This document shows, piece by piece, positions 3,494-21,450 of a DNA stretch of 29,198 bases. Both the position numbers and the translations under genes were made by a program. Source of the stretch: a virus. Below the pieces are notes generated by a model. It had not been told where the DNA came from. It was given only the letters and a program-made list of their open reading frames with translations, and did not search any database. The stretch is from IMG/VR virus record IMGVR_UViG_3300010885_015116, positions 1 through 29,198 of that record. One strand, 5' to 3'. Numbering within the stretch: the stretch's first letter is position 1; the number at the start of each line of letters is the position of its first letter.

Positions 3494-6400
3494 TTAGCCT
3501 CTAAAAAACTGTGCGGCCACAGTGTCAGTGTATTGCAAGCCTACACCATCGTACGCTGTGGTAGAGCCGGCGCCGTACCAGCCCAGTCCTTGACGTATTT
3601 GGATAGTTACTTGGTATCCTGCTGTGGGTGCTGTGTCAAACTCTACAGTAACTGGATTGTCACCAGTTACTGTATACCCGCTGGTTTGTAACAAACCACC
3701 TACATACACTAAAATGGCCTGTGCATCAAAGGTCGAATCTTCTAAACTTAGATCAACGTCTGCTGTAAAGATTGTGGTGGTTCCATCGGCCAATGTATCG
3801 GAGCCTACATATTGATTTTGATATATTACCGGTGCTAGGTTGTCACGACTTAAATTATAAACTATTGAATCTACAGAATGCAAATCAACTGCGGTTCCTG
3901 CAGTTCCTCTCAAGAGGCTGCTTACTGTATTTGCTATTAAATCACGTTCACGATACATGATGCGCTCACCATTAACAGTCAACACACCCCAAATGTTGTT
4001 GGCTAAATCAGGCTCTGCAAGAGCGCCAGCATTGTCTACATATACAATGTCATCATTGGCATACAAAGTTTGAGTCAATGTAGTGGTAGTTGCTGGGGTC
4101 ATTCTATAGGTGGCCTGTACTCCACGCATGTCTTGGAAGATACGCAATTCAAGTCCTGATACAGGATCAGTTTCAAGAATAACAATCACTGCACCTGCTG
4201 CCGGAGCAGTATTAAAAGTAACACCTGCGTTTACGCTGTCCCCATAATCAACAGTGTATTCAGTAGGAGAAACTACAACATTGTTGACCGCAACTTCCAC
4301 TTCCACAGATGCAGTAGGAGCGGCATATGGCCCAGCATCGCTGCCATCACCAGTGTACGTTGTGATTTGACGTGTGTAAACACGGAAGTCCATGGTATCA
4401 AATATTGCACCTGGCACTAATTCTTCAGGAGCATGACTTTCGTAAGGTCCAACAAATTCGCCACCATCTACGTTGATATCAGTTGCTAGAGTTCCTAGAT
4501 AAGGGTCAAGGAACGAACTTTCATAGATTGCATCAAGTATGGCAGGATCGTATGTGGGGCGACCTTCTGGACCATAACTGATGTTGTCAAAAGGATTGAT
4601 GTCAAAGTTGCCCACATCAAAGCCTGTGTTTTGAGAGAATGTGGGTGCGGTGACTTGTACGCCTGGATAGTCTACACCGTCAATTAACAAAGGTAAATCT
4701 AGTCCAGGTTCATTGGGTCCTGGCACATAAAAGCCCATGGTACGATCAACACCACTCAATGAACTGGCTGTAACCAAAGTCCAATCGTCAGGATCAAATG
4801 TTGTTCCTGTAACTGGTTGCCATGCGATTGCAGTTCCTGTGCCACTACCTGTACCAGTGGCAACAAATGTTACTCCTACTGTGTTTGAAACAGCACCAAT
4901 TGATATAAAATTAGTAGTGCCTAATGTTTTAATAGTATACGTAACACCAATTGTAAAAGATCCTGCAGTCACAGTCTTTGATGCTGACCATACGCGATCA
5001 TCGTAACGAACTAGAGTACCTTTAGGATAACTTACATTGGCTTCCCAAGGTACAATGGTGCTCACATATTGATAACGGTCATACTTGATAGTGGTGTTGA
5101 TGCTACGAACCAGGTTGTTGCCCATTACAGCAACAATCCGACCGCCTGTTCCGTTACCGCCCGACACAGTAATAATGGCTGTGCTGATATAGCCTGATCC
5201 AGGATCGGTAACAATTACCTGACTGATATTACCCGCACTGTTAACAACCGCGGTCATAGTTGCTTGTGTTACACAATCTCCAGTGACTGTGAGTTGAGGA
5301 GCAACAGTATATCCTGAGCCGCTGTCCGCAATCACAACATCTTGTATACTGAGTGTGTAGTTTTCAAACCAGAAACTATAGGGCTGTGTTTGCCACAGTG
5401 TACTATCGGGTGCTACATCACTGTAGGTACTAGGGTGGCCAGTTCCTGTTGCTGTACTCAAAGTGTAAGGAGTCAAGATTGGACTCATGTACTGATTTGG
5501 TACTTGTTCAGTGTTGTAGAATGCTGGCAAATCAAAGTCAGCCATACTACCTTGGTAATCATCAAAACCGTTATAAATCAAATTAAATTCACGTATTTGC
5601 ACATGATATGGTTTGATTTCTTGAATATAGTTCAGCACAAAGTCCTGGTTGTTTTTCTGATATGTTTGGTACGGAATCAGTTGGGCAATCTTGTGATCAA
5701 CGTCGATCAAACTGGTTTTGGTCAACCACTCAGGTGCTTCAAACTCGCTGAGTACAAAATTAAACATCAGCATCAATGCACGATTGCGTTCGATCAATAG
5801 GTCGCCAATCAACAGTTGTTCGTTGATGGCTTGTATAATCTTACGTGTTTCAGTCACTGGTTCTTGATCAAAGTGCTGTGCATCAAAAACTTCCACATCA
5901 AATCCAAAACGTCCCAGCGCATAGTCCCATAGTTCTGCTAGGAACTGTATGGTCCCATCTTGCAATCCCACACGGTCCCATCCAAGATTTGTTCTTAGAT
6001 AAATTTCATATTTGCCTTGACTGTTGGCAGTGACTTTTGCACTACTTCCCACTGGGGCTTGCGTTAAACTCAAGGTATTGAGGCTGGCCACGTTAGCGAC
6101 TTCAGCAATAATTTTAACGCTGGAATTGTATCCTGGCAAGTACCAAGTGACATATACCCAATAGTTTCTGGTATCGTAATTTTGCACACGACTCAAGAAC
6201 AGGGTGGCAAAAGTCTTGGTTGCTGTCACAGTGTAAATGGTCCATAGACCGTTTTGTGTGCTGTCGCTGACCACAAGATATTTGTACCCTACTGCAACCT
6301 GAGCAAAATCTTGGTAACTGAGTTCTTCAATGTTAGCCACACGTTTGTTCCAGGCACCAGTTCCTGCTTCTGGTTCAGCCTCACTGCTGTTTAGTAAACT

Positions 6401-9400
6401 GAAGTTTCTGGTTTCTGATATAGGGAATTGTAATAACACAGCATTGACATATTCCAAATAGTTTTGCAAGGCCAGGAACCTATCTGCAAACATACTTTGA
6501 CGTGGACGGAATTGCACACCATAACGTTGTGCTGGACTCAATGTAGGATCAGGCACAAGAGCACCTTGTGTGTTTACTCCGCAGAAACTGTCTTGTAATT
6601 TTGCATACAAATTGTCTGGTAAGAAACCATTAGCACGATCTTGTGGCAACAAATCATATTGCACATGGACATTGTCATCGGTTAGTTGTCGATCAAATTC
6701 AATACTGATCACAGTATCTTGGGCACTAATTTCTCCTATGGCATTGTAAATGGCTGTGGCGCTGGGGCTAACAAATGCCACATAAGGAATGCCACTGCTA
6801 CGAGGGTCAGCAATGTATCTGGCAATACCGCTGGGGCTGAGAGTTTTACCTATTGCAGTATTGATTGTGGTAATGTTTTTAACCCAGAAATAATATGTGG
6901 TTCCAAATACACCTGTTTTATTCAGTCCAGTGGTCACACTATAATTGGTTACAGTTCTAGGTGTACCAGGGCCTGTGTAGTTGGCCGGTGGGACAGAACT
7001 AGCAACCCATTGATATACATCAACACTACTGCCTGGGAACAATTGGCTCCATCTACGTGCGGCATACACAATGTCATCTTGATTGGGGTCAATAAATCTC
7101 ACTGAATTAGTATCCCACCAAATTTGTCCTTCTCTTGTGGCAGCCCAAATTTGACCATAATTGTTTTTGGCTCCTACATTGTAAGCAGCCGGATCAACTG
7201 CACCAATGTAGTCAATGTTTTGTCGTGCGGCACCTAATATTTTGCCTTGCAATGGATCAATGAAATCAAAGAATGTGGTTTTGGCACTGGTAATGCGATC
7301 GTATGTGAACACACCATTGATCAAGGCAATATCCACCACTGGTTGTTGTAAATTGATCGGTGTCCATGCCGGAGAAAGATCAGGATTATTAAAAATAGAG
7401 ACTGCTCCGTAATTGCGAGCAACCAATGAACTGTCTCCAAGATCATCTTTAGGGCTGCCGGCCAACAGTATACCATTGGTATAGTCAACAGAGGTGCCAT
7501 ATTGATCTAACTCAGTTACTGTTTGATCATAAATTTGTAGACCAAACGCAAACTTACCAGGATTTGTAACAGAGTCAGTGTCACTGGCAAAATAATCATA
7601 TGTGTATACTGCACCACTTTGAATCAATGGTCCATTGAATATTGTGGTCTTGCTGTCGAAATATGTGGTGCCACCATCAAATGTAGTTGGGCGATATATA
7701 TTACCACGCGGTGCACCCACAGTGAGTACAAGAGAAGTATTATCAATGTTGACATCGCTACCAAAGGCTGCATAGGCCACTGGGTAAGGACTAGAAATAG
7801 TTTGAGTGTACACAAAAGTTTCAAAAACCATGCTGTCAAAGATATTACCAATCAGGCCAGGTAGCACAGTCAACTTGTTGCCGGCTGTTGCGGCATCTGT
7901 ATTCTTGACACTAACTGTGAGCAAACCAAATGTTTGTGTTCCTGGAACAGCACCGGCACGGGCTATCACGTTGGGAACTGTGCTTGAGTTGATATCTTGG
8001 GCAAGCACTGCGGCCCAACTGCTGGGCTGCCAATATGTGGTATCATTCAAAGAAGTTCCTACTGGCACAGGTTTAATAGCAATCCAAAGACCTTGATTGT
8101 ATTCAACTATAGTATCAACGGTATAGGTCAGCGCATTGTTCCATGTGGTTGGTGTACTCAGGGCCACTTCCATGTTGTTGATTCTAATAGTGTTGCCAGG
8201 ATTTAGTCTAGCATTTACTGTTGATGTTGTTATGCCATACACACGACTTTGATTTACATCACGTTCTACTGATCCTGCTTCTGGCAAAACACTACCGTCT
8301 TGTGGTGCACCCACATACAAACTACAATTGTAGTGGCAAAGATCCACAGCCTGTCCAAAGTTTGCACCCTGGAATGGTGCGTTAGATCCAATGGTTTGAA
8401 TCAGGCTAAATGTGTTTACTTCAATCTCTAATATATCTCCTACTGCGGCAGGAATGGTCAAGGTAATCTCATTGGTGCCAGTTACTGTGTAGTCTCCTGA
8501 GGCATTACCTTCGGTGTTTGTTAAAAATTGATTGTTTAAAATTACCGATGTTGGGGCCACCAAAGTTGTATCAACTTGATACACAGTCTGCGTGTTGTCT
8601 GTCACAATAAATCTTTGTACAGACCGATCGTACACATAAGTTGATCCAGCATCGGACACTGAGTCATATGTGTCGTTTGGACAGCCAATTATGATTTGTC
8701 TACCGTCTGTGGAACAACTAACCGATTGGCCAAATCTTGCACTAACGTCAAGTCCTGCAGGGCTTAGTGTTTCAACATAGGTATAATAACTTTGCGTAGT
8801 CACAGCAATTGTGCCAGTTGGTATATGTGCAGAATCGAAGGTTATATTTCTAGTGCTATTGTTAAATGTATAATCGATGTTGGGCCGTTGAATTATGTCG
8901 TTTACTGTGACTTTAAAACTGTAGATATTGGTAGCACTATACAAATATTCATTTAATGAGAAAGTTTGTGTGACTCCGTTGCCTGTAAAAGTTTTACTTA
9001 CTCGGCGGCCAATTCTTAACACAAGATCCTGGGCTGGTGCTGTGTTTAACACCACGCTGGTCGCGGTCACTGTGTAATCAGTTGTGTAGGTCAACAGTTG
9101 ATTGGCAAGAACCACAAACAACTGTTCGTATTCTCCAGAATCGATTATCACGTTACTACTATAATTATAAACTGTCTGGACTCCATCAGTAACGTATTCT
9201 ACCTGTTGGGCTTCTATCTCTACCAAGCCATATGCATACACTTGATTGATGCCTGGTGCACCAATGTACATCCAGTTTTCATCTGGGCTGACCACAACGC
9301 TGGTGCCGAATTCACTGCTCGAATCTATGTAAGTATCATCAGGAACAGTTAATAAATTTGACAACACAAAAGTAGGACTGTTTGGAAATCTATAGATAAC

Positions 9401-12400
9401 CGCCGCATAGCCGGAGTTTGCACTTGAGTCTGAGCCGATACTGGTTGGAGCGCCTACTGCTCCCCAGGTTTGATTGCCGATACTGACAACTGATCCAAAT
9501 CCATATGCTCCGGGATTATTACACTCTATTATACTGTTTTGAGTAAATGGATTAGACGAAGTTCTCACATAAGTGTAAAGTGCGCCCGACTGTGTGTCAC
9601 CGTAACCTGGTGCGCCCACAAAAGCAAACACGTTGTCTCGGGCTTGTGCAACGCTTGTACCAAATTGACTGTCGGCCGACGGCGACGTCACTTCAAGTTG
9701 ACCACTAGTATGGAACACTTCTTGTTTTTCTACAACTTCCCATAGCCCTGCGCCATTGTTATCGATCCAGGCACGATCTCCGGGTATCAGATTATTAGCA
9801 TATGGCAATGTGATAATGTCGCTGCCTTGTGTGACTCGTTGAGTTTGCAAAGTAAATGGTGTTCCAGTACCCGTAGCCACAGTTTGACTAGTCTGCAAGA
9901 AAGTGAAAGCAATAGTGACCTGGAAAATGCTCGGAACATTTAATACTCGATACACTCCGTCAACACCAGATCCAAAATATTTGATTAACAAAATATTGTC
10001 TGCGACTAATCCGTGTGCTTGATTAAACGTAGCCACTGCGGTGCCATTGAGGTTGCTGTTGACTTGTGTGATGATGCCTTGTACTTGGGCTGTTCTATAA
10101 ATGCCCCAATCGTAGTCATTGATTTTGGCTATCCATACTATAGAGCCCACGTTGACATTGTTTAAATTGCCTGCCAACGAAGCAGTATTGTCAATATTGA
10201 ACACAGTAATATCAACATCATCAATGTTTACATATCCTGCCGATGGCAGGACTGTGTCTGTAATTTTAACCAGTGTAGTGGTCAATATGTCAGGGCTAGG
10301 TATTTTGTAACTTTGATTCCATAAGTTACTGAGCAATACTGTTTGTTCAGCCAGGCTTGATTCACCAGGAACGACCACTTGAATCAGGCTGGGATTTGAA
10401 GTCAACAATGCTTCATTCAATCTCATTTCATAAAAACTTCTGTTGGCATTGGCACCATATACGCCACGTTGTACTGCCCAGTTTTCATAAATGTTATACT
10501 CGGATACGCCGCGGCCAAAATCAGCAAAGGTAAAAATCTCTGCCGCACGTACAGTACCTTTGGTTCCAAGGAATTGTCGATACAAGTTAACTTGACTGGT
10601 GCTGTCTAGATTCAGCGACACCATGTATTCTCTAGGTTTGAATCCAATTAAATTGTAGGCAAATAAATCTTGATTGAGTTCAAGATTGGCCTGATACACA
10701 TCATATGTGTTGGCCAACTGATCACTCTTGTTGGGCAAGTTGGGCAATAAACCTTGCTGGATTTTGGTATAGTCACTGCGTGTCCAGTCGTTGAAATCAA
10801 ACTTTGCTTTGGGCTGTACAATGTCAACTGCACTGTAATAGAAATTTTTGTATAACACAATTTCCCCGCGGGCGTATTTGCGCAGAGGTTCCCATTCTTT
10901 GATGTTGTTTTGATTCAGTATAAAGCCTGGCGCATTTAATTGACCGTTCCATTCCTGGGTAGTGGAACCAATCAGTCGCACTCGACTTTGTCGAGCACCG
11001 GTTGCAGGATAATAAATCAAATCAGCAAAAATACTCTCATTGTCCAACACAATCATGTTTTCATATGATGTAAATTTGATATGAAAGTAGTTTATGGTAT
11101 CAGCAGTTAGACTCTTGAGGGTAAATGTATTATCCAATCGTTCGACCACAAGATTTCTTGTGGCAAATGGAGTACGATCAGCATTGAGTACCATGTTTTC
11201 TGTGGTCTGCAAAGCAATGCTGTCAACTATGGCACCTGGCCTTACTACCGTCACTTGTGATGCCGCCGAATTCAAATTTATAATACTACCTTCGGCCCAA
11301 CCTTGACCACTCCAGTACAGGAATTCACTGACCATTTGGTTCCAGTCTATTAGATAACCATTTTCCATTTGGTCAAATACCACACCTTGCTGTTGTAGCA
11401 ATGCACCATAACTCAATAAGAAATCTGCTACCAAGGTTCTGTTGGTAAACACATATCCGTAAGGAACCTGTACCACTTGATCACTATAAGTCACTGGTAC
11501 ACGGACGTCAAATCCTCCCGCACTGATTGTACCCAATACACCATTGACTTTGCTGACCAAGATATTGAAATAAGGTTGTGTGGTACTGTATCCGTATACT
11601 GCCCAGCCATTGCCAGTCGACTGCACAATTATACTGCTGTAAGTCAACTGATCAAAAGGTACATTTTTGTAAAACAACAAATTGTAACTTTCGTCTGGTA
11701 ACAACAAACTTGAATTGAGACTGTTAGGACTCGACTTTTCAGTGTAAATTTCCAACAGATTTTTACCAGTAAATGCTGCCATTCTATAACACAACCGCAC
11801 ATCAAGATTTTTAAGATCTGCTGTGAGTGCGTCTGTGGAATTGATTCCGGTCACACGATTGTAGTCTACGATCCAGTCGATATAACTGGCCTTGCTGACA
11901 CCATTGCCATAAATTTCAATGCCATTGGCATCTAGTCTGTAACGACCGTTATAGAGATACTGCCCAAGTTCTGCATTGTAGCGGTATAAGTCACGGTCAG
12001 CAAACAGGCTAAAGAATTCTGCAGGGCGTGTGAGTACCAACATTCGCATGATAGCAAATGGATAAGCACTACTTGTTCTCCAGGCATTTTCTACAGGAGC
12101 ATCATCACCAACAGTCCAACTTTTCCTAAAGTTTGTGCTGTTAAAGTTGCCGACCACGGTTTCAATAGGTGGTAGTAATGTGCCTTCACTGCCTGAAGGA
12201 ATCACTTGTGTGAGTTTGGGTCTGGCATATTGAGGCAGTATATAAGGTGCAACAGGATCTCTTACTAGACCCAATGCTAGATCATCCCAAAGAACCAAGT
12301 TGCCAGAAGTATAAGGAGCAGGGCCATATTCATCCATCCACCAGACTGGCATTACACTAAAACCCAACATCTCCCAGGGTCGTGTGTTAGGACTTATGGT

Positions 12401-15400
12401 GTCGTAGAAATAATTGTATATGCCGCGCCAGGCGCCCACCGCCAATGGTTGGTTATCAGTCAACTTGTTACTGGCGGTACTGTAGTTCCAAGTAAATCCA
12501 TTATTGGGCAAATAGTCTTGCGATTTATAATCTAGTTTGTTCCAGCCGACCCATGTTAAGAAATCTTGACTTTCAATATCAGTAATTTCTTGCAAGATGT
12601 AATCGGTTGTGCGGAATTGACCGGGCACAACTTCGGTGGCTGTGAGTGGTACAGGATTGCCATCCAGTTTTAAATTGCTGTAAATTCTGATTTCAAATTC
12701 CAATAACAACTGATCTCTGAAGTCACCAAACGCCACTGTAATCGAGCCATCATGGCCGCGAATAACTCGCCGAGGTGTGACATAAGTTGTGTCTAGATAT
12801 ATTTCAGGAATAAATGCAGGATACAATCCTAGTTTGGTAGGAGTGTTAGGTATAAAGGTACCATATGTTTCTGCGTATTCTTGTATGACCACGGTGTCGC
12901 CCACTGCCAACGGAATGATAATGGTCAGTGTTGCAGAATCAGTAGAAACCACATACTCAAGATCTCTAGTGAGCAGGCGATCGTTGACATAGACCAATAG
13001 GCCCAAGTAATTGGCTGAAGTATAATTATAAACCTGTGTGGTATCGAAAATTTGTGTGGAAATTGGATTAATTACAGTAGTAGATTCTGTATAGACATTA
13101 CCGCCCGGCAACATGTCACTCCAGTAGAATGGATTTGAACTGGTTCGTCCGGCAATGAGATCCGTTATGACTGCTGTCAGTATTTCAGGCACAGTCATAT
13201 TAACATAGTCATTGCTGATCGCAGTATTCAATAATTGTGCTTTGTATTTTTCGTATTCTCTTGAGTTGTATTCAAGACTGGCAAAAATATTATACTCTGG
13301 GTTACGCAAGAAATAACCAGCCAAGGTCATTGGAGAACTTTGTTGCAGAATATTTAGACCAAAAGGTATAATATTGCCCAGGTCACGTGAGTTGTTGGCT
13401 CCGTTGATTTTGCCTGTGAGCCCGATAAGATTTTGACCAATGGTGTCGTAATGCGTTCTTATTGTGCCTAGTGTAAGATTATCTGCGTTTTCGTTCAGCG
13501 GGTTGTTTTCAAGGTTGATTGGCACTTGATAAAATGCCACTGCACTGGCTTGATCGCTTAGAACCAAAACTTCAATTATTTGCCCAGGCACAATAACTGT
13601 GGTGCTAGGAAATGTTATTGTTGTGGTGTTGTCAGTTGTGACGTAGGTATATGTACCTGGGTCCTGGAATGTGCTATCAATATAAATTTTAATTGATGGA
13701 ACTGTGTCCACAGGCAACGCTGCCACGTCTAATAATAACGGCGTGTTTTCAGCATATACAAAACTAAATTGTTGATAAATTTTGCTTTTGACTGCGGCTG
13801 TTTGCCAACCAATTTCTCGACGATAAACTGTACGGTCAGCGTATTGTCTTACAAATCCTATGCTGATGTTTTTTGTGTAACTTACATTGTCTTTGACATA
13901 GAGAAAAGTGTCAGCATAAAGATTATTGTTAAACACAATGTCGCCAATGTTGTTGAGACTCAGATAGCGTAAAGGAAATCCTAGTACTGTATCATCTGCG
14001 CCTGGGCCAACAGCATAACTAAACAACTTGGATCCCGCAAATGTGCTACTAGGATACGCCACCAGATTGCTGAGACTGTATCCGTTACTGTCGTAGATAT
14101 CAAACAACGGTGCTTGGTTTACACTGGTCTTTTGTTGTGCTCGAATCCATTGAACACCGTCATAATAAAAACTTATGCCTTGCAATGTGGTGCCACTGAG
14201 ACAGACCACTGTTTGATCAAAAAATACGTCAGCGTCGCTGGCTGGAACTAGGTTGATAACTGGATCTGAAAATGAACTGCCATCATCGCTGAGGGTTACA
14301 AATTCAACTGTATAAATTTTGTCTCTTACATCGGGATCTGTGTCTCGAGCAAAAATAACTCTGGTTCCAGCAATGAATGTATATCCATCAACTCCGTAAC
14401 CCACAGTCCCGTTTATGGTGCTAAGAGCGTCGGTTGTGACAAAATCAATGATATCCACAGGTTGCTTGCCTTGTGTACCCATTTCATACAGTCTAGTGCC
14501 GCCGCGGAATTCCAAGATAGGACGTCGTGCTCTGAATGCATTGTCCAGCACTGGTACAGTATTGTTGTATGTGGCCGAAGCATTGATCACATCAACGTGG
14601 AACCAACGATTGCTACGACTCCATGCATTAAGATCCGGAGAATCCAGGGCCATGGTCAAGTAGTCTGGTATCAATGGTTGGTTTAGGCTGGAATCAAAGT
14701 TGCCCACATCAAAAGGTGTTGAGTCAAATGGCACTGTGGCACTTTGTGTGTAGGTTTCCGGAGTGACATAGTTGCTGGTGGGCAATAATTGTATGGCTGT
14801 GCCAACTCCAGCCACATAGTATTCTTGATTTGCATAACTAGTGGGCACCACTGGTGCAAGAAACTGCACCTTGAGATTGTTGGTAAACACTACCCCATTG
14901 GGGCTAGTGTAGTTTTGTTTGCCTAAAATGTCAGTAACAACATTAATAGTTGAACTGTCGGCTTGATCGACCAGTCTGATCTGACCAAAAATATCTGGGT
15001 TGGTTCCATCTTGATACCACAACACGTCTTTAATTGCAGTGAGCAACGGAACTTCAGTAATCACACTGCTGGCATTACTGTACCACGTTGTGCTGGCCCA
15101 CTCAGTACCAAACAACACATCAAACTTGGACAGAGTGCTTATGGTAGAGATAGGAATCAAGTTGATAATTGGCAAATTGTCGATGTCGTAGATGTACTGT
15201 ATCTGCCAAACGTTGTTGGTCGGAAAAGTAGGAGATGTTGTGAATACCAGGGTCTTGTTGTTGAGATTGGTAATGCCATCTATGCCACCATAGTTAGAAA
15301 TGATATCACTGAGATAGACTCCGTTTAACTGATCGTAACTCAATGCACTCAACAGGTCCACGTTGCCAATGCTGGTCAGGTCATAGTAGAACTGTTGTGC

Positions 15401-16117
15401 ATTTTTAAATGGTACATAAAAAGTAACTGTGCCCAGGTCTTCGCCGTTGTTGGTAACGCCCAGCACTGTTCTACTGCTGATGTTAGGAGCATAGGGTAAC
15501 GTTCCGTTGATACCCGGGTCAGTTTGTATCCAGAACGGATTGCCAGTTTGACTCACTTGAAATGTGTAGTTGCCTCCACGTACCAGAGTGATCACAGGAT
15601 TATTGCCGGTAACACCACTAAAGTTGTATGATGCTGTGTTACGAGTAACAGTAAAGTTATCAGTTAGTGGTATCTCTGTTGCATACACATCTACCACATT
15701 AGGTCCGGCAGGCAACCAATAATATTGACTGTAGTTTACAAATTTATCAAAACTAACAAATGGATCCCAGGTATAGTATTCGCTGGTATAAAGTCTATCA
15801 CTCTTGGTTGTGTTGGCACCTTGAACTGCTAGTGCATCAGTAATGCCAGGATATGTAATAGCATCTTGTATTTCTGTAGTGTCTGGCTTGAGGCTGATGA
15901 CACCAGGTTCCAACTGATAGTTGGCTCTGACTGCATCGGGTTCTAGCACATAGTAGTCATTGGGATTAACCCCAGGTCCAACTCTACGGCCCACATAACC
16001 TTGTGTTTTCTTGAATGCAGGTTCTTGGACCAGTTGATCTAGTGTGGCATTTAAAAATTGTTTGTTGGGAGTGGTCTGAAATATTTCAGGTAAAAAATCA
16101 ACAGTGCGTATAGCCAT
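3494..16117 (-). CDS. Giant mosaic baseplate/tail fibre protein, 4207 aa, at the gp7 position
   Basis: One uninterrupted 12.6-kb frame starts by TAATG overlap with the gp6-like gene. T4 gp7, which occupies this place, has about 1032 residues. Approximate domains: 1-60 conserved head (KQFLNATLDQLVQEP); 485-545 DYLTMALDSPDLNAWSRSNR; 806-853 and 1030-1083 Ig-like beta modules; 1244-1320 PWEMLGFSVMPVWWMDEYGP; 1738-1790 carbohydrate-binding-like (CBM5/12-type) module; 2140-2915 seven FG-GAP repeats with Ig-like modules (2305-2371, 2373-2443, 2502-2569) and a second CBM-like module (2657-2703) inserted; 3333-3530 a conserved helical region (TSLIDVDHKIAQLIPYQTYQ); 3592-3664 two GSGY repeats; 3685-3781 an interrupted third CBM-like module; 3918-3983 and 4106-4173 further Ig-like modules, with a VNGERIMY/LLRGTAGTA motif between them. 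No enzyme motif or membrane segment is visible. It probably fuses wedge and fibre functions. The virion role is likely; equivalence to gp7 is inferred from position. Confidence 0.85.
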   Translation of the reverse strand: MAIRTVDFLPEIFQTTPNKQFLNATLDQLVQEPAFKKTQGYVGRRVGPGVNPNDYYVLEPDAVRANYQLEPGVISLKPDTTEIQDAITYPGITDALAVQGANTTKSDRLYTSEYYTWDPFVSFDKFVNYSQYYWLPAGPNVVDVYATEIPLTDNFTVTRNTASYNFSGVTGNNPVITLVRGGNYTFQVSQTGNPFWIQTDPGINGTLPYAPNISSRTVLGVTNNGEDLGTVTFYVPFKNAQQFYYDLTSIGNVDLLSALSYDQLNGVYLSDIISNYGGIDGITNLNNKTLVFTTSPTFPTNNVWQIQYIYDIDNLPIINLIPISTISTLSKFDVLFGTEWASTTWYSNASSVITEVPLLTAIKDVLWYQDGTNPDIFGQIRLVDQADSSTINVVTDILGKQNYTSPNGVVFTNNLKVQFLAPVVPTSYANQEYYVAGVGTAIQLLPTSNYVTPETYTQSATVPFDSTPFDVGNFDSSLNQPLIPDYLTMALDSPDLNAWSRSNRWFHVDVINASATYNNTVPVLDNAFRARRPILEFRGGTRLYEMGTQGKQPVDIIDFVTTDALSTINGTVGYGVDGYTFIAGTRVIFARDTDPDVRDKIYTVEFVTLSDDGSSFSDPVINLVPASDADVFFDQTVVCLSGTTLQGISFYYDGVQWIRAQQKTSVNQAPLFDIYDSNGYSLSNLVAYPSSTFAGSKLFSYAVGPGADDTVLGFPLRYLSLNNIGDIVFNNNLYADTFLYVKDNVSYTKNISIGFVRQYADRTVYRREIGWQTAAVKSKIYQQFSFVYAENTPLLLDVAALPVDTVPSIKIYIDSTFQDPGTYTYVTTDNTTTITFPSTTVIVPGQIIEVLVLSDQASAVAFYQVPINLENNPLNENADNLTLGTIRTHYDTIGQNLIGLTGKINGANNSRDLGNIIPFGLNILQQSSPMTLAGYFLRNPEYNIFASLEYNSREYEKYKAQLLNTAISNDYVNMTVPEILTAVITDLIAGRTSSNPFYWSDMLPGGNVYTESTTVINPISTQIFDTTQVYNYTSANYLGLLVYVNDRLLTRDLEYVVSTDSATLTIIIPLAVGDTVVIQEYAETYGTFIPNTPTKLGLYPAFIPEIYLDTTYVTPRRVIRGHDGSITVAFGDFRDQLLLEFEIRIYSNLKLDGNPVPLTATEVVPGQFRTTDYILQEITDIESQDFLTWVGWNKLDYKSQDYLPNNGFTWNYSTASNKLTDNQPLAVGAWRGIYNYFYDTISPNTRPWEMLGFSVMPVWWMDEYGPAPYTSGNLVLWDDLALGLVRDPVAPYILPQYARPKLTQVIPSGSEGTLLPPIETVVGNFNSTNFRKSWTVGDDAPVENAWRTSSAYPFAIMRMLVLTRPAEFFSLFADRDLYRYNAELGQYLYNGRYRLDANGIEIYGNGVSKASYIDWIVDYNRVTGINSTDALTADLKNLDVRLCYRMAAFTGKNLLEIYTEKSSPNSLNSSLLLPDESYNLLFYKNVPFDQLTYSSIIVQSTGNGWAVYGYSTTQPYFNILVSKVNGVLGTISAGGFDVRVPVTYSDQVVQVPYGYVFTNRTLVADFLLSYGALLQQQGVVFDQMENGYLIDWNQMVSEFLYWSGQGWAEGSIINLNSAASQVTVVRPGAIVDSIALQTTENMVLNADRTPFATRNLVVERLDNTFTLKSLTADTINYFHIKFTSYENMIVLDNESIFADLIYYPATGARQSRVRLIGSTTQEWNGQLNAPGFILNQNNIKEWEPLRKYARGEIVLYKNFYYSAVDIVQPKAKFDFNDWTRSDYTKIQQGLLPNLPNKSDQLANTYDVYQANLELNQDLFAYNLIGFKPREYMVSLNLDSTSQVNLYRQFLGTKGTVRAAEIFTFADFGRGVSEYNIYENWAVQRGVYGANANRSFYEMRLNEALLTSNPSLIQVVVPGESSLAEQTVLLSNLWNQSYKIPSPDILTTTLVKITDTVLPSAGYVNIDDVDITVFNIDNTASLAGNLNNVNVGSIVWIAKINDYDWGIYRTAQVQGIITQVNSNLNGTAVATFNQAHGLVADNILLIKYFGSGVDGVYRVLNVPSIFQVTIAFTFLQTSQTVATGTGTPFTLQTQRVTQGSDIITLPYANNLIPGDRAWIDNNGAGLWEVVEKQEVFHTSGQLEVTSPSADSQFGTSVAQARDNVFAFVGAPGYGDTQSGALYTYVRTSSNPFTQNSIIECNNPGAYGFGSVVSIGNQTWGAVGAPTSIGSDSSANSGYAAVIYRFPNSPTFVLSNLLTVPDDTYIDSSSEFGTSVVVSPDENWMYIGAPGINQVYAYGLVEIEAQQVEYVTDGVQTVYNYSSNVIIDSGEYEQLFVVLANQLLTYTTDYTVTATSVVLNTAPAQDLVLRIGRRVSKTFTGNGVTQTFSLNEYLYSATNIYSFKVTVNDIIQRPNIDYTFNNSTRNITFDSAHIPTGTIAVTTQSYYTYVETLSPAGLDVSARFGQSVSCSTDGRQIIIGCPNDTYDSVSDAGSTYVYDRSVQRFIVTDNTQTVYQVDTTLVAPTSVILNNQFLTNTEGNASGDYTVTGTNEITLTIPAAVGDILEIEVNTFSLIQTIGSNAPFQGANFGQAVDLCHYNCSLYVGAPQDGSVLPEAGSVERDVNQSRVYGITTSTVNARLNPGNTIRINNMEVALSTPTTWNNALTYTVDTIVEYNQGLWIAIKPVPVGTSLNDTTYWQPSSWAAVLAQDINSSTVPNVIARAGAVPGTQTFGLLTVSVKNTDAATAGNKLTVLPGLIGNIFDSMVFETFVYTQTISSPYPVAYAAFGSDVNIDNTSLVLTVGAPRGNIYRPTTFDGGTTYFDSKTTIFNGPLIQSGAVYTYDYFASDTDSVTNPGKFAFGLQIYDQTVTELDQYGTSVDYTNGILLAGSPKDDLGDSSLVARNYGAVSIFNNPDLSPAWTPINLQQPVVDIALINGVFTYDRITSAKTTFFDFIDPLQGKILGAARQNIDYIGAVDPAAYNVGAKNNYGQIWAATREGQIWWDTNSVRFIDPNQDDIVYAARRWSQLFPGSSVDVYQWVASSVPPANYTGPGTPRTVTNYSVTTGLNKTGVFGTTYYFWVKNITTINTAIGKTLSPSGIARYIADPRSSGIPYVAFVSPSATAIYNAIGEISAQDTVISIEFDRQLTDDNVHVQYDLLPQDRANGFLPDNLYAKLQDSFCGVNTQGALVPDPTLSPAQRYGVQFRPRQSMFADRFLALQNYLEYVNAVLLQFPISETRNFSLLNSSEAEPEAGTGAWNKRVANIEELSYQDFAQVAVGYKYLVVSDSTQNGLWTIYTVTATKTFATLFLSRVQNYDTRNYWVYVTWYLPGYNSSVKIIAEVANVASLNTLSLTQAPVGSSAKVTANSQGKYEIYLRTNLGWDRVGLQDGTIQFLAELWDYALGRFGFDVEVFDAQHFDQEPVTETRKIIQAINEQLLIGDLLIERNRALMLMFNFVLSEFEAPEWLTKTSLIDVDHKIAQLIPYQTYQKNNQDFVLNYIQEIKPYHVQIREFNLIYNGFDDYQGSMADFDLPAFYNTEQVPNQYMSPILTPYTLSTATGTGHPSTYSDVAPDSTLWQTQPYSFWFENYTLSIQDVVIADSGSGYTVAPQLTVTGDCVTQATMTAVVNSAGNISQVIVTDPGSGYISTAIITVSGGNGTGGRIVAVMGNNLVRSINTTIKYDRYQYVSTIVPWEANVSYPKGTLVRYDDRVWSASKTVTAGSFTIGVTYTIKTLGTTNFISIGAVSNTVGVTFVATGTGSGTGTAIAWQPVTGTTFDPDDWTLVTASSLSGVDRTMGFYVPGPNEPGLDLPLLIDGVDYPGVQVTAPTFSQNTGFDVGNFDINPFDNISYGPEGRPTYDPAILDAIYESSFLDPYLGTLATDINVDGGEFVGPYESHAPEELVPGAIFDTMDFRVYTRQITTYTGDGSDAGPYAAPTASVEVEVAVNNVVVSPTEYTVDYGDSVNAGVTFNTAPAAGAVIVILETDPVSGLELRIFQDMRGVQATYRMTPATTTTLTQTLYANDDIVYVDNAGALAEPDLANNIWGVLTVNGERIMYRERDLIANTVSSLLRGTAGTAVDLHSVDSIVYNLSRDNLAPVIYQNQYVGSDTLADGTTTIFTADVDLSLEDSTFDAQAILVYVGGLLQTSGYTVTGDNPVTVEFDTAPTAGYQVTIQIRQGLGWYGAGSTTAYDGVGLQYTDTVAAQFFRG
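4770..5065 (-). other. Carbohydrate-binding-like module interrupted by a GTTNF-type cassette
   Basis: Within the giant protein, residues about 3685-3715 (VPWEANVSYPKGTLVRYDDR, then VWSASKTV) are the first half of a CBM5/12-like fold, and residues about 3768-3781 (VTGTTFDPDDWTLV) are its last strand. Between them lies a self-contained segment of about 50 residues (YTIKTLGTTNFISIGAVSN, then FVATGTGSGTGTA). From memory this segment is a separate module in many aquatic phage tail proteins. The junctions show similar residues, VTAGSF on one side and VTGTTF on the other. Confidence 0.55.
7375..9700 (-). repeat. Seven FG-GAP (integrin-alpha-like) repeats forming a probable beta-propeller
   Basis: Seven copies of an FG-x-S/A-V ... 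V/I-G-A-P pattern occur in the giant protein: FGTSV/VGAP at about 2152/2168, FGSVV/VGAP at 2206/2221, FGTSV/IGAP at 2269/2285, FGQSV/IGCP at 2462/2477, FGQAV/VGAP at 2586/2601, FGSDV/VGAP at 2784/2802 and YGTSV/AGSP at 2871/2887. Most are followed by a G-x-x-Y-x-Y strand (GALYTY, GSTYVY, GAVYTY). Seven is the blade number of integrin-alpha propellers. The spacing FG to GAP is 15-18 residues, shorter than repeats with a Ca-binding loop, so calcium binding is doubtful. Confidence 0.7.
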
Positions 16118-19100
16118 TAAATTACTCCGCTGCCAGGTGCAGTTCTAATATTAGTACTGGTCAATGCAGTAATTACTTCCACACTATTGACTCCGGCGCC
16201 ATTGACAAATATCTCACTGGGGCCACTGCGTATTTCGTACAGGTCACCAAAACTCTTTAGTGGGTCCAATGGTACCAACACCACTGAACTTACAACTCCT
16301 CCCATGTTGGAATGAATGTAGGCTGCCAGTTCTGAGAAATAAAACGTCTGTCCAAAGTCCCATTTGTCAATGCTAAAATAAGTGTTTAGATTTGCTACCA
16401 CTAGATTTTTTATTTCACTTTCACTGGCTGTGCTATCAGCGGCACGAATAACTTTGATTGTGGCCTGTAACTCTTTGGCTGCCTTGGGTCCGAACAATGG
16501 TTTGAATACCACGCTGTTTACAATCACGTTATCACTGATCATTTTATAATCATTGAGTCCTTGATATGCTGTGTTTAATTCGTCAATAGTCGGAACTGCG
16601 GGTTTTGGCACAGTATCAGTTACATCTCTCAACCAATTCTGATAGGCAGTATAATAGGCCTGACTAACCACATACAAGTCAATGATGTTGGTTGTACCTG
16701 GATCAATTCTACTGGTCAGTGCGGCATTGTGTCTGTATTGATAGTACAGGCTTTGGCGGCCAACTCTGGCCAACCATTCGTCCGACACTTCAATCAGACT
16801 ACGCACACCTGTTCCACTAATAACTAGTTGATAAAATGCAGGATTTGTTGTATAGGTATTGGTTGAAGTATTGTAAACTCCGTAAGCATAAAACACTTGT
16901 CCAGGAACAAACTGTAACAGTACTGCGCTAATGTCGTCTTTGGTGGCATATTCAGAAATCACCCGACCAGGTTCTACCAAAAGATAACGTTGCAGATTGT
17001 CAAAGTCCACGGTCTTTTCAAAGAATACAAATTTAGTAGTAGGGTTCACATCAGGTGCTACAATTTCATCAAAAAAGTCCGGGTCATCAGGAACACCATC
17101 ATTGTCTGCATCTTGGTAACTTACAAAAACTTGATAGTCGTCAACAAAGCCGTCGCTGGCCACTGGCTGGCCAACAATAGCCATCTTGATATCTCCAGGT
17201 AAGGGAGTATTTGTGTCAGGTCTTGAATTGGTTTTTAATACATTAACAAAGTCAGCGATTACTGTGCCTGTGCGGCTGTCGTAGATTCGTTGGTTGGTTT
17301 CAAAGAAAAATCTAGTCTGTAACACTGATCCAAACAGATAAAACAATGCACGACTGGTAACTGTATATGTGGTTCCGTTAGTAACAAACTGTATCAACCA
17401 AGAAGCATCTTGATTGGTGCCCGACGTGTTTTGTGCGTTGGCCAAACTAAATGGTGCGTTTACATCTAAATTTGTACTTGTAATTACATACCAGGTAGCG
17501 GTAGTATTGTCGTAACCAAGACCAAAATTACGATACAATACAATCTGATCAGTTATGGTACTAACTGTAGTATTTGGCAAATTTGTCACTAGTAAAGGAA
17601 TAACTGCCACTGGAATAGCGCCAGTCGGCACAAAATTGTTTAGTATGACAGGTCCGGTACCGTTTGAGAAATTACCCTGACCTTGATTGGTGCCGTCTAA
17701 TACTATGGCAGTGGGACTGGCCCAAATTATCAATTTGTCATTGTCTTGGCTAGGCGTTCCTAGTTTGAGTCTATTATTGACATCAAAATAATAGCCAGTG
17801 GGTGGAACAAACTGCACTAAAGAACCAACTTGTATATATTTACTCACCGTGCTACTGTAGGTTCCAATGGCAGCAGGAAATCCTAGTGCATTTACAAAAT
17901 AACCAGTAGTCTCATTGGCCAGGGTTGTACTTTGATTCCAGGTGAAATTTAATACAGTAAGATTGGGTCTTGGAAAGTTTGCATAATAAAATTGATCTAA
18001 TCCAGTAGAAACCAATAATGGTTGAATGTTATTAGTAATCACTGTGGCTACGTCGTTACGAGTCAACCAAGAAAAGTTAAAGGTGGGCAGTTGATTTTCT
18101 TCCCACAAGGCTCCATCGCTACCAAATGTGTTAGTTGATGAGTACTTGCCAGTATTGTCCACCAGGTCAAGATATCTTGAAGTTCCAATTGACGCACGAT
18201 TTAGTGCATTGCTTTTGATAATTGAATTATAAAGAGTGAACGGAAAGTTACTGTAGTCTTCTCCGTTGACCATACGATTCTGTGTGTAATATCTAGCAGG
18301 CGCACGTTGCTTGATCTCGTCTAGAGTTTCACGAGGTTGTGCGTTGCTGACAGGTTGTGTAATGCCGCATGTGAATGTAATTGTTTCAAGTTGCCCAGTA
18401 CGACTCACATAACTGATGGGTATGGCCACGCTTTGCATTTCTTCAGGATTAATAATGTAAGCCAATCCGTTAGAAGCACGAACATAAGCACGGAATAATC
18501 CCACTGGGATAGTACTAAACACACCGTCTCCAAAAGTCAGTGTGATTTGATCGTTGGTTCTACTGACCACAGAAAATAATTTTCTTTGATCTGGGGCTAG
18601 TTGTTCAGTGGCGGCGGCATAGACACTTTGTACATACTGCCATTCGTACTGTACATTGCCCACATTGTCCAGTTGGAACAACCAACGGTCTTCGTTGTTG
18701 ACTCCTTCGATATTGACGTTGACTGTTCTGTTGGCCACACGTTCGCCAATATTGAAGTCTTGATTTTGCAGTACGCCTTGTTTGAAATAAAAGAAATAAC
18801 CTGTGTTGGCACTAGCAAATCCCAGTTGATCATTGCGGAACAACAAATTGAAAATACCATTAGGCAATGGACTAGGTTCGTACACATAGTCGCGTCCTAC
18901 CGATGTTGAGTTTACTGCCTCGAATGGCATGGCAATACCATTTACTGTGGCAGTATAAGGAACTATTGGTAAAAATCCAGGAACCAAGTTGATACTGTAT
19001 TCAGATGTGTCAACTCCTACAACAGTCTGTTTATTACCCGGGCGGCCGACTCGTTGTGTATTGACCAAGGCAGCATTAAGAATGGCTGTGAATTGTTCTA

Positions 19101-19557
19101 CCCAGTTAAAGTTGGTAGGATCGTTCCAGTTTATGGTGACATTGGCCAAGTTAACGCCGTTGAAGTCTGTGACATTTTCTGTTGTTTGTACTGAGAATAC
19201 TTTGAGATAGCCTTGAGAGGCTTGATTTCGTTTGGGAGTATAACTGACCAATTCGGCCAATTTGACCACGCTGTCTCTACGCTCTGCGGTGCCTAAATAA
19301 TTTTCTCTGGTGTTTAAATCATTGCGGAAACTCATGGCTTGACCCATGTATGCAATGACGTCTAGCATGGCAATAAATTCTGAACTTTCAATGTAGTCAT
19401 TGAAACTTTCAGGGTAATACTGGCGTATATAATCTACAAAACTTTTGCGCAGGGTTTCAAAGTCATAACTTTGAAAGTCTGCTTCTCTGTAGGTTTGATA
19501 GATTCTTTTCCAATCTTCAACGCCAAATACAACTGTTTGTCTAGTAGTTCGTGCCAT
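16117..19557 (-). CDS. 6: gp6-like baseplate wedge protein, 1146 aa
   Basis: This is the wedge subunit that, in T4, forms the inner baseplate ring with gp53, gp7 and gp25. The N-terminus is diagnostic: DFETLRKSFVDYIRQYYPES (32-51) and FIAMLDVIAYMGQAMSFRND (61-80), then ENYLGTAERRDSVVKLAELV (85-104). A baseplate-J-like core has ITLTFGDGVFSTIPVG and RETLDEIKQRAPARYYTQNR followed by MVNGEDYSNFP. The C-terminal part reads FKPLFGPKAAKELQATIKVI and WDFGQTFYFSELAAYIHSNM, which suits the gp6 dimer/ring region. T4 gp6 has 660 residues; the extra length lies mostly between about 480 and 930, a beta-rich insertion. The stop overlaps the giant gene's start (TAATG), so the two are probably coupled. A promoter-like ATAAATA and an AAGGA ribosome binding site precede it. 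Confidence 0.88.
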   Translation of the reverse strand: MARTTRQTVVFGVEDWKRIYQTYREADFQSYDFETLRKSFVDYIRQYYPESFNDYIESSEFIAMLDVIAYMGQAMSFRNDLNTRENYLGTAERRDSVVKLAELVSYTPKRNQASQGYLKVFSVQTTENVTDFNGVNLANVTINWNDPTNFNWVEQFTAILNAALVNTQRVGRPGNKQTVVGVDTSEYSINLVPGFLPIVPYTATVNGIAMPFEAVNSTSVGRDYVYEPSPLPNGIFNLLFRNDQLGFASANTGYFFYFKQGVLQNQDFNIGERVANRTVNVNIEGVNNEDRWLFQLDNVGNVQYEWQYVQSVYAAATEQLAPDQRKLFSVVSRTNDQITLTFGDGVFSTIPVGLFRAYVRASNGLAYIINPEEMQSVAIPISYVSRTGQLETITFTCGITQPVSNAQPRETLDEIKQRAPARYYTQNRMVNGEDYSNFPFTLYNSIIKSNALNRASIGTSRYLDLVDNTGKYSSTNTFGSDGALWEENQLPTFNFSWLTRNDVATVITNNIQPLLVSTGLDQFYYANFPRPNLTVLNFTWNQSTTLANETTGYFVNALGFPAAIGTYSSTVSKYIQVGSLVQFVPPTGYYFDVNNRLKLGTPSQDNDKLIIWASPTAIVLDGTNQGQGNFSNGTGPVILNNFVPTGAIPVAVIPLLVTNLPNTTVSTITDQIVLYRNFGLGYDNTTATWYVITSTNLDVNAPFSLANAQNTSGTNQDASWLIQFVTNGTTYTVTSRALFYLFGSVLQTRFFFETNQRIYDSRTGTVIADFVNVLKTNSRPDTNTPLPGDIKMAIVGQPVASDGFVDDYQVFVSYQDADNDGVPDDPDFFDEIVAPDVNPTTKFVFFEKTVDFDNLQRYLLVEPGRVISEYATKDDISAVLLQFVPGQVFYAYGVYNTSTNTYTTNPAFYQLVISGTGVRSLIEVSDEWLARVGRQSLYYQYRHNAALTSRIDPGTTNIIDLYVVSQAYYTAYQNWLRDVTDTVPKPAVPTIDELNTAYQGLNDYKMISDNVIVNSVVFKPLFGPKAAKELQATIKVIRAADSTASESEIKNLVVANLNTYFSIDKWDFGQTFYFSELAAYIHSNMGGVVSSVVLVPLDPLKSFGDLYEIRSGPSEIFVNGAGVNSVEVITALTSTNIRTAPGSGVI

Positions 19558-19600: not shown

Positions 19601-19975
19601 TTATACGTAACTGGCTCGTCTTGTTTCTTGATTAAAAAATATATTAAGTTGTTCCACAGTGGTACTAGGAACTATCTGAATCTGCAATTCAATCAATACC
19701 CCGTTTTCTTGAGGGTAATAATTTGCATCACTGATATAAATTCTTGGATCTCCACCAGCAATTTTTTGTATTTCGGCTAGGATAGCACGTTCTGTTACAG
19801 TGTCTTGACTTTCAAAAACATAGTCTAACAATGTAGAACCATAACCAGGGCGACCCGGCAAGGTACCCTGACGAATGTTAAAAGCATTAAGAAGATCACG
19901 TTTAACTAGTTCACCGTCGGTCAGGGTGAATTTTTTATATTGATTGATGGTGCTATACCCGATAAATGTGGCCAT
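19601..19975 (-). CDS. 25: gp25-like baseplate wedge/sheath initiator, 124 aa
   Basis: Length and sequence fit the GPW/gp25 family (T4 gp25 has 132 residues), whose protein joins the inner baseplate ring to the first sheath ring. Visible features are LVKRDLLNAFNIRQGTLPGR (residues 23-42), a GYGSTLLDYVFE motif (44-55), the helix ERAILAEIQKIAGGDPRIYI (62-81) with the conserved E and DPRI, and a final beta strand GVLIELQIQIVP (92-103). It lies between the 484-aa gene (20-nt gap) and gp6, the usual gp25-gp6 order. No good ribosome binding site precedes its ATG; the gap holds CAATAAATAACAGT instead, so expression may depend on upstream translation or on a very short leader. Confidence 0.9.
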   Translation of the reverse strand: MATFIGYSTINQYKKFTLTDGELVKRDLLNAFNIRQGTLPGRPGYGSTLLDYVFESQDTVTERAILAEIQKIAGGDPRIYISDANYYPQENGVLIELQIQIVPSTTVEQLNIFFNQETRRASYV

Positions 19976-19995: not shown

Positions 19996-21450
19996 CTACC
20001 AGAAACTAGCAATAAACTCAACGGCTTCCGCGGCATACTCTTGAGCAGCCTCAATGATTACATCAGAGCCGCCTAGTAACTCTGATACATCAAAGTCAGT
20101 GATTGTTGTGATGTCTAGCCCTAAGGCGTCAAACCCTTCTGTAAATATTGCTGTTCCATACTCTTGAAGCCCTGCTAATACCTCTCCTGACCCAGGTATG
20201 TCTTTTAACAACGCACCAACGCCAGGTAAACTTTTTGCTTGGTCTAGTAGGCTGGCGGCGCCTTTTATCTCACCCAGAAGTCCTTGACCTGATTTAAGCA
20301 AACTCATGATACTGTTTGCGCCAGGTATTTGAGACAATGCGGCAACGCCGGCCGCAGTTGACGCCAACTGAGTGAGTAGTATGGATGCCGATTGGTTGAC
20401 TGTGCTGAGTTGCGTGGCTTGAGTTCGTATGTCAATACCCAGCGCAGGATTGGCAAATATATTGCTAGGTATTTTGTTATTACCGATTATGCTGTTGAAA
20501 GCAGTATCTATTACTGATCGATTCACTGTGTTTGAATAGCCTCGAGGTGTTTGAACACCCGTCTGTAACGGATTACCTCCGCCGCTTACAGATTGGTTGA
20601 CTGTGCCAAAATTCTGACCAAATATTGAATTAATGGCCGAGGTGGTCAATTGACCAATTTCACTGCCGCCCACAGTGTTGTTTAGCCATGCTGTGGTTGC
20701 GCCTACTCCATAATTGGCCGCATTGTTGATCACCGCACCCAGATCTGTATTGGAACCAAGCAAGTTATTCACCGTAGACGATACTACTCCTAATTCAGAT
20801 AGATTATTGTAACTGCCGGTCAACGAACTCTGCTGTGCAAGACTTTGTAATGTGGGATTGGTCAGCACCGCATCTAGATCAGTTGCACCGCCTTTGCCAG
20901 TCCATACTGTGGGACTACTGAGAGTGCTAACTAGGGTTGACGGGTCTTGGTTGATCAGTTCTGCTGTGCCTGGTTTAATTAGGCCTGCTTGTTGCAATTG
21001 ATCAGGTGTGAGTCCGTATTTGCCTAGGCCGTTTTCGTTGGTAATGTCTGTGGCATTTTGATTCACTGCTGAGGCGGTGCTTGACAACAATCCTTGTATC
21101 TGTGTGGTTGACAGCGGCCCTACAGTACTACCCGCCAACACCGGAGTATTAACAAAAGTTGATATTGTGGTTGGGTTCTGTGCTGGAAGATTTGGTATCT
21201 TGGTTATGGCGCTACCAATCTGAGACAATGTACTGGGCGTGATCGATGATGTGACCTGAGACAGGGCTGTAGCAAGTCCGCCTTTGGCCTGAATCAAACT
21301 GTTTAATACGTCCCCGGCTCTTAGTCCTGTCAGGCTACCAGTGTTGTACTGTTGATTAAAGATAGCCAGGGCTTGGTCATAGGTAGATCCTGCTGGACCA
21401 GTGACTTCAATTGGTTGGCCTGTGGGAGTAGTAAACTTAAAAACGTTCAT
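19996..21450 (-). CDS. Helical tail/hub-associated protein of unknown function, 484 aa
   Basis: Residues 1-45 form a small module (FKFTTPTGQPIEVTGPAGST, then YDQALAIFNQQY) of a kind I recall at the N-terminus of other phage tail proteins. About residues 145-225 contain YGLTPDQLQQAGLIKPGT and LSSPTVWTGKGGATDLDAVL, a further recurring unit of aquatic phage hub-region proteins. The rest is rich in Ser, Ala, Gly, Leu and Asn with weak amphipathic helices. The C-terminus is acidic and ends in AAEAVEFIASFW. There is no signal peptide or clear membrane span. The ATG overlaps the spike gene stop (ATGA), and the gp25-like gene follows. Position suggests a spike partner, spike cap or baseplate assembly factor; none of these can be shown from the sequence. 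Confidence 0.55.
   Translation of the reverse strand: MNVFKFTTPTGQPIEVTGPAGSTYDQALAIFNQQYNTGSLTGLRAGDVLNSLIQAKGGLATALSQVTSSITPSTLSQIGSAITKIPNLPAQNPTTISTFVNTPVLAGSTVGPLSTTQIQGLLSSTASAVNQNATDITNENGLGKYGLTPDQLQQAGLIKPGTAELINQDPSTLVSTLSSPTVWTGKGGATDLDAVLTNPTLQSLAQQSSLTGSYNNLSELGVVSSTVNNLLGSNTDLGAVINNAANYGVGATTAWLNNTVGGSEIGQLTTSAINSIFGQNFGTVNQSVSGGGNPLQTGVQTPRGYSNTVNRSVIDTAFNSIIGNNKIPSNIFANPALGIDIRTQATQLSTVNQSASILLTQLASTAAGVAALSQIPGANSIMSLLKSGQGLLGEIKGAASLLDQAKSLPGVGALLKDIPGSGEVLAGLQEYGTAIFTEGFDALGLDITTITDFDVSELLGGSDVIIEAAQEYAAEAVEFIASFW

Follow-up and report, generated by a model that had tools for sequence, protein, structure and literature searches.

The uncultured viral record IMGVR_UViG_3300010885_015116 of the IMG/VR database (positions 1-29,198, its complete length; hereafter the window) encodes a giant protein of 4207 amino acids (aa) in the gp7 position of a baseplate gene cluster, and within this protein some 790 residues make up a cassette that is confidently predicted to form a closed seven-bladed disc like the head of an integrin alpha chain. 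Both propellers on phage adhesion devices and phage proteins with FG-GAP_2 repeats are known; what appears to be new, within the literature covered, is the placement of an FG-GAP propeller inside a phage baseplate protein. On balance, we lean toward a role of this propeller as a baseplate platform that binds ligands on the host surface, for which it would have to be exposed at the baseplate periphery.

Seven FG-GAP blades and their predicted fold

The sequence-only reading of the window had recognized seven FG-GAP repeats in order within positions 7375-9700, and seven ordered FG..G[ACS]P segments are indeed found there on the minus strand, starting at residues 2152, 2207, 2270, 2462, 2587, 2785 and 2873 of the giant protein. 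Blade 2 escapes a strict regular expression in the window, and the blades were therefore counted with profiles. In a held-out test, a blade profile built from six of the positions in 57 relatives was used to score the seventh, each in turn, against 3,000 shuffles. The resulting scores are listed with the blades and strands (strand assignments by DSSP on the model described below).

7343..9718, minus strand: propeller cassette, ~790 residues (2134-2925), delimited by the model and by the junctions relative to propeller-less homologs
9698..9712, minus strand: N-terminal strand, residues 2136-2140 (DSSP), aligned with the integrin alpha N-terminus
9527..9664, minus strand: blade 1, residues 2152-2197 (33.5 bits held-out; Pfam 1.2e-4)
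9350..9499, minus strand: blade 2, residues 2207-2256 (6.5 bits; four strands in the model)
9221..9310, minus strand: blade 3 strands A-C, residues 2270-2299 (29.3 bits)
8765..8788, minus strand: blade 3 strand D, residues 2444-2451 (DSSP)
8627..8734, minus strand: blade 4 strands A-C, residues 2462-2497 (30.7 bits; Pfam 5.6e-6)
8387..8413, minus strand: blade 4 strand D (DSSP)
8252..8359, minus strand: blade 5 strands A-C, residues 2587-2622 (20.4 bits)
7796..7816, minus strand: blade 5 strand D (DSSP)
7532..7765, minus strand: blade 6, residues 2785-2862 (20.6 bits), with a 32-aa B-C loop of partly low confidence
7349..7501, minus strand: blade 7, residues 2873-2923 (18.4 bits)

For blades 1 and 3-7, none of the 3,000 shuffles scored as high as the window, while blade 2, the weakest by sequence, was equalled by 21 of 3,000. 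Among the Pfam families, FG-GAP_2 (PF14312) matches the whole giant protein (3.8e-7, 30.6 bits; curated cut-off 23) and a 657-aa fragment of it (1.9e-9, 38 bits, above the same cut-off); FG-GAP (PF01839) and FG-GAP_3 (PF13517) have no match in the window. Blade by blade, Pfam gives two significant matches, to blade 4 (26.9 bits, above the cut-off) and blade 1, and two marginal ones, to blade 7 (0.036) and blade 6 (0.27), and no FG-GAP match to blades 2, 3 and 5 taken singly. A significant profile match for at least five of the seven segments, as asked for by the sequence-only reading, is thus not obtained with Pfam alone but is obtained with the family's own held-out profile (six of seven), and we regard the shortfall in Pfam as answered by this profile together with the fold.

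An AlphaFold2 model of residues 2095-2935, based on the alignment of 57 relatives (41-85% identity), has a mean predicted local distance difference test score (pLDDT) of 90.5 and a predicted template modeling score (pTM) of 0.91; the blade 6 B-C loop region falls below a pLDDT of 50 at model positions 718-734. The 50 best solved-structure entries by structural Z are all integrin alpha heads except for two WD40 entries. The integrin heads match with Z of 32-36 and a root-mean-square deviation of 2.5-3.0 Å, with 350-381 residues aligned over model positions 39-827 at 16-20% identity, and Foldseek ranks integrins first too (~1e-10). The alignment to integrin heads spans all blades and begins at model position 39, which corresponds to integrin residue 1; the N-terminal strand (residues 2136-2140) is likely to be the closing strand of the propeller. 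The proposed integrin-alpha-like closed propeller of seven blades is therefore upheld, as a prediction, by a confident model and by its fold matches. A set of degenerate FG-GAP-like repeats or an array that does not close would agree with the significance of only two blades in Pfam and with the weak sequence of blade 2. Given the pTM obtained for the whole region, the full-length integrin alignment and the modal count of seven blades among homologs (see below), we consider such an arrangement highly improbable and largely refuted already.

The likeness to the integrin alpha head lies in the fold, with seven FG-GAP blades in both, and in the capacity of the loops of both to take extra domains. 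It does not extend to the calcium loops, the I domain or the stalk. The calcium-binding motif DxDxDG, located in the A-B hairpins of the later blades in integrin alpha, is absent from these positions in the window, and the nine-residue calcium loops of integrins cannot fit because these hairpins have only 2-6 residues in all 57 relatives. Unlike integrin alpha, the phage propeller also has no I domain separating its second and third blades, has constitutive inserts in the C-D loops of blades 3-5, and is followed by a scaffold block in place of the thigh and calf domains. This scaffold block is also conserved in propeller-less homologs from jumbo phages.

Inserts and loops of the propeller

Blades 3, 4 and 5 each have a large insert between strands C and D, the third and fourth in sequence, as judged from the strand order in the model by comparison with the uninterrupted blades 1, 2 and 7. 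The extra domains are thus located within these blades and not, as first read from the sequence, between blades 3/4, 4/5 and 5/6.

8789..9220, minus strand: blade 3 insert, two beta modules of ~65-70 aa (residues 2304-2372 and 2372-2443)
8414..8626, minus strand: blade 4 insert, one beta module
7817..8251, minus strand: blade 5 insert, 145 aa, mixed alpha/beta (95-216 aa in relatives)

The inserts had also been described as Ig-like and carbohydrate-binding-like; we dropped the carbohydrate-binding reading, since Pfam finds no family of that kind in any of the three. A profile of the first blade 3 module matches the second one, weakly the blade 4 module, and also residues 3941-3980 and 4108-4173 of the same protein. 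Because these further copies match in the C-terminal part of the giant protein, the beta modules of blades 3 and 4 are, by profile comparison, recycled modules of the giant protein itself. The blade 5 insert belongs to no Pfam family. The family CBM_5_12 has no match in the three inserts; its weak match at residues 3691-3717 (17.2 bits versus a cut-off of 26.2) lies outside the propeller.

In propellers, one face carries the B-C and D-A loops and the other the A-B and C-D loops; integrins bind their ligands with the former. Among the 57 relatives, the A-B hairpins of all seven blades are near-constant in length (standard deviation 0 to 0.1, differences of at most one residue). Optional inserts occur in the B-C loops of blade 1 (up to 69 residues), blade 4 (up to 96), blade 6 (up to 100) and blade 7 (up to 62), as well as in the D-A loops between blades 1 and 2 (up to 91) and blades 3 and 4 (up to 84). 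All 57 relatives have inserts in the C-D loops of blades 3-5, and the C-D loops of blade 3 (140 to 247 residues) and blade 5 (95 to 216) likewise take optional additions of domain size.

Two further modules were observed in the giant protein. A mini-module of ~45 residues (AGxFxxGxxYTIxxVGTTxFxxIGAxxNxxGxxFxATGxGxGTGxA), located at window positions ~4830-4970 on the minus strand (residues ~3717-3762), is found at differing places in 37 of the records compared (L040, L029, L035, L123 and others), including the propeller loops of blade 6 in L040 and blade 7 in L029, and looks like a small mobile protein module. A GSGY-type repeat at residues 3589-3667 (~5117-5353, minus strand) has partial matches to PHROG families of head-closure and hub proteins (3.8e-9 and 5e-5) and is a module common to unrelated phage structural proteins.

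The giant protein and its baseplate gene neighborhood

The minus strand of the window encodes, in order, a tail protein, a gp53-like wedge protein, several tail proteins, a hub/lysozyme-type protein, gp25-like and gp6-like proteins, and the giant protein, the gene of which directly follows the gp25-like and gp6-like genes.

26544..26843, minus strand: gp53-like baseplate wedge protein (phrog_7145, 5.2e-20)
21447..22970, minus strand: gp5-like baseplate hub protein (phrog_13211, 2.6e-34)
19601..19975, minus strand: gp25-like baseplate wedge protein (PHROG 2.4e-10; Pfam GPW_gp25 1.3e-5, slightly below cut-off)
16117..19557, minus strand: gp6-like baseplate wedge protein (phrog_10646, 2.7e-277)
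3494..16117, minus strand: giant gp7-position baseplate protein, 4207 aa (open reading frame; phrog_10938, 4e-287)
10313..12859, minus strand: conserved upstream scaffold block, residues 1087-1935 (24-32% identity to cultured jumbo-phage homologs)
5468..7363, minus strand: conserved downstream scaffold block, residues 2919-3550 (the tree below was built on its equivalents)

The family phrog_10938, which the giant protein matches over its scaffold, comprises jumbo-phage virion structural proteins. Using tblastn with the most conserved part of the protein, we identified homologs at 22-30% identity in cultured phages, namely Pseudomonas phage PA5oct and its relatives, Salicola phage SCTP-2, Agrobacterium phage Atu_ph07, Sinorhizobium phage Phosso and the Rak2/PBECO4/GAP32/CBB group. 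The order gp25, gp6, giant gene is shared by PA5oct and PBECO4, and the PA5oct homolog carries in its record an electrospray ionization tandem mass spectrometry (ESI-MS/MS) note as a virion protein. Both the gene order and this virion detection of a cultured homolog place the propeller in a protein of a baseplate gene cluster.

The T4 gp7 protein has 1032 aa and is a peripheral wedge protein that bears other baseplate proteins; we know of no propeller in it. Like gp7, the giant protein is placed after gp25 and gp6 in the baseplate cluster; unlike gp7, it has 4207 aa and shows no detectable sequence or fold similarity to that protein. Neither sequence profiles of the scaffold blocks nor a model of residues 2919-3551 (pLDDT 85, pTM 0.63) gave a convincing match to any solved structure, and this includes T4 gp7. 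The term gp7-like thus refers to position only. With these blocks, a previously unannotated phage protein of ~4,200 residues gains a modular anatomy, in which conserved scaffold blocks flank a region that would accommodate lineage-specific plugged-in modules.

Insertion site and distribution of the propeller

The cassette replaces a short WxVY...WxxxRxQxxVD connector, which has a few residues in propeller-less relatives and, as judged from its sequence, is probably the tip of a beta-hairpin.

9722..9769, minus strand: upstream side of the insertion site, WIDNNGAGLWEVVEKQ; counterpart in the propeller-less homolog L223, VWVNADTQSGATGWAVYTY
7316..7366, minus strand: downstream side of the insertion site, WTPINLQQPVVDIALIN; counterpart in L223, WTRTRQQSPSVDITSIN

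At the junction, the window reads 'LWEVVEKQEVF' - propeller - 'AWTPINLQQPVVD', and L223 reads 'GWAVYTYNGSTWTRTRQQSPSVD' at the same place; other propeller-less homologs have 'PWKVYQKYGVWFEYRREDKKVD' (L270), 'GWKVFSKTSDGWTAVRRQPRVMD' (L267) and 'DWAVAVVSGSTITNIRSRQNLVD' (PA5oct).

Homologs were collected by three IMG/VR scans, with the downstream block as query, and from named phages, yielding 234 proteins with both flanks; each scan contributed its best 80 loci, with some contigs entering twice and near-duplicates among the 234, and the counts are not population frequencies. According to the iterated blade profile, which has no matches in reversed and scaffold controls, 190 of the 234 homologs have four to eight blades (mode seven, n=115) and 44 have none, with nothing between. 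A tree of the downstream block was built from 105 representatives, of which 73 carry the propeller and 32 lack it. In this tree, a single clade of 75 rows with support 100 holds all 73 together with two propeller-less rows, L223 and L302. Three state changes suffice on this tree versus a mean of 27.5 for shuffled labels. The simplest interpretation of this pattern is a single gain with two losses; change counts alone cannot separate gain from loss, the tree was built by a quick method, and the two nested propeller-less rows have long branches. It suggests that an integrin-type propeller was captured once, at one exact position of the protein.

Of the cultured phages in the tree, none belongs to the propeller clade, and none of the cultured relatives checked has a propeller at this site. 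The propeller had no tblastn match among 50,697 named phage genomes, and no relative turned up when bacterial and archaeal genomes were scanned, so that neither a donor nor a host was identified. A compact propeller with almost no inserts was observed in a divergent relative (L296, 5895-8063), where seven FG..P-like segments are seen by eye and five are found by the profile.

The region between the two scaffold blocks ranges from ~180 to ~1,590 residues in homologs in which both blocks are well delimited, a range that leaves out three marine-type rows with larger values and a poorly delimited upstream block. PBECO4-type homologs are propeller-less, with an inter-block region of only ~186 aa. 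Other modules of this region include GXGY-type repeats in L192, L195 and L230, and repeats similar to the GSGY type fill the cassette region in these three and in Atu_ph07. A LamG-like reading of an SCTP-2 segment was made by eye only and set aside, as it has no Pfam support. In L302, the giant protein (5823-8063) has a GDSL lipase/acylhydrolase domain (PF13472, 8.6e-15). We rejected the possibility that this domain replaces the propeller at its own site, as the junctions place it upstream, and it is thus evidence on the wider region only.

The hydrolase domain of L302 raises the question of an enzymatic role, in which the propeller would be a glycan-cleaving or lyase domain that opens a capsule or surface polymer, in line with the glycoside hydrolase or lyase activity of many propellers from other families. 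The nearest folds, however, are the non-enzymatic integrin heads, and Pfam finds no catalytic family in the cassette, which makes an enzyme improbable.

Possible role of the propeller

Under the binding-platform reading, an FG-GAP propeller would have been inserted at the WxVY...WxxxRxQxxVD connector of the giant protein in the common ancestor of a large clade of uncultured jumbo phages, a single gain being the most parsimonious reading of the tree. The propeller would most likely project from the baseplate wedge as a platform for host-surface ligands. In keeping with such a platform, the A-B hairpins are rigid in length, the loops that in integrins make up the ligand face (B-C and D-A) take optional modules of 40-90 aa, and large beta domains occupy the C-D loops of blades 3-5 on the opposite side, with the faces assigned from general propeller topology. 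Two observations tipped our preference toward this reading, although they are not proof: the presumed ligand face takes up optional modules, and in other lineages the same region holds unrelated ones.

The main alternative is an assembly platform, i.e. a protein-protein hub in the virion on which tail fibers, spikes or neighboring wedges dock without any host contact. Propellers are common as docking modules, T4 gp7 itself is a peripheral wedge protein that bears other baseplate proteins, the C-D inserts of blades 3-5 occur in all 57 relatives with A-B hairpins of constant length, and the lack of a propeller in PBECO4-type homologs (~186-aa region) would be expected if fiber sets differ. The optional modules in the B-C and D-A loops suggest, however, at least one free face, and related lineages put unrelated modules, a hydrolase domain included, in the region. 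We consider this alternative a credible but less probable one.

Several points weigh against a ligand-binding platform or against parts of its support. The AlphaFold2 training set includes integrins, and the integrin match is therefore not independent. The place of the giant protein in the baseplate rests on gene order, with no gp7 match in sequence or fold. For any one loop of the presumed ligand face, only 1 to 8 of the 57 relatives have an optional insert, and the good conservation of blade strands and large C-D inserts also fits a role that is purely structural or one of docking. In L302, itself a long-branched row, the GDSL domain is located upstream of the precise propeller site. Finally, both the peripheral exposure of the propeller and its binding to host-surface ligands are inferred.

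More tentatively, the clade may have built an integrin-like adhesion head into its baseplate wedge, as a rigid exchangeable display disc with receptor-binding modules swapped in the ligand-face loops. If the display-platform reading were true, host recognition would be part of the wedge itself, beyond the detachable tail fibers. For this widespread clade of uncultured jumbo phages, the propeller would also be a candidate adhesin that is compact and suited to expression.

Relation to known phage propellers and FG-GAP proteins

The sequence-only reading knew of no described role of FG-GAP repeats in phage baseplates, and the literature that we searched likewise contained no paper on FG-GAP repeats, or on a propeller formed by them, in the baseplate of a phage. 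As propellers are known on phage adhesion devices, we count the present case as a variation on a known theme. The C-terminal propeller of phiKZ gp131 (PDB 4GBF) has seven blades and is located at the baseplate periphery of a jumbo myophage, where it is a suspected, unproven receptor binder (PMC4901313). By this description, it resembles the propeller of the window, whereas gp131 is a separate peripheral protein and the propeller described here is an FG-GAP-type cassette within a giant protein in the gp7 position. The receptor-binding protein of Staphylococcus phage phi11 has a five-bladed propeller platform (PMC4901313) and likewise places a propeller in a baseplate adhesion device; it differs in its blade number and as a homotrimeric separate protein of a Gram-positive siphophage. 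Jumbo phage CBB, which also has a homolog of the giant protein, encodes propeller-type proteins, one of them in the virion (PMC5259590), but these belong to the Kelch family and are separate proteins.

In a viral structure library, the best matches of the propeller include an uncharacterised protein of uncultured Caudovirales, giant-virus FG-GAP proteins, the 'hemagglutinin' of Atu_ph07 and a cyanophage S-TIM5 virion protein; the occurrence of FG-GAP proteins in viruses is therefore not in itself new. Atu_ph07 gp320 and the very long arrays of Phosso, both from relatives of the window phage, also match FG-GAP_2 (PF14312) above its curated cut-off, but their repeats are in separate proteins and their giant scaffold proteins have no FG-GAP repeats. 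The Atu_ph07 gp320, annotated as 'streptococcal hemagglutinin' (L190 7019-8200; NC_042013.1 243018-244199), is an FG-GAP_2 propeller-type protein that adjoins the tail-sheath genes, and its name is probably misleading. In Phosso (L189; PV764938.1 48338-68978), two adjacent genes annotated as 'hypothetical' encode proteins of ~3,160 and ~3,690 aa, in which FG-GAP_2 repeats number in the dozens; more of these repeats are found near 92-94 kb, giving 66 matches in the genome.

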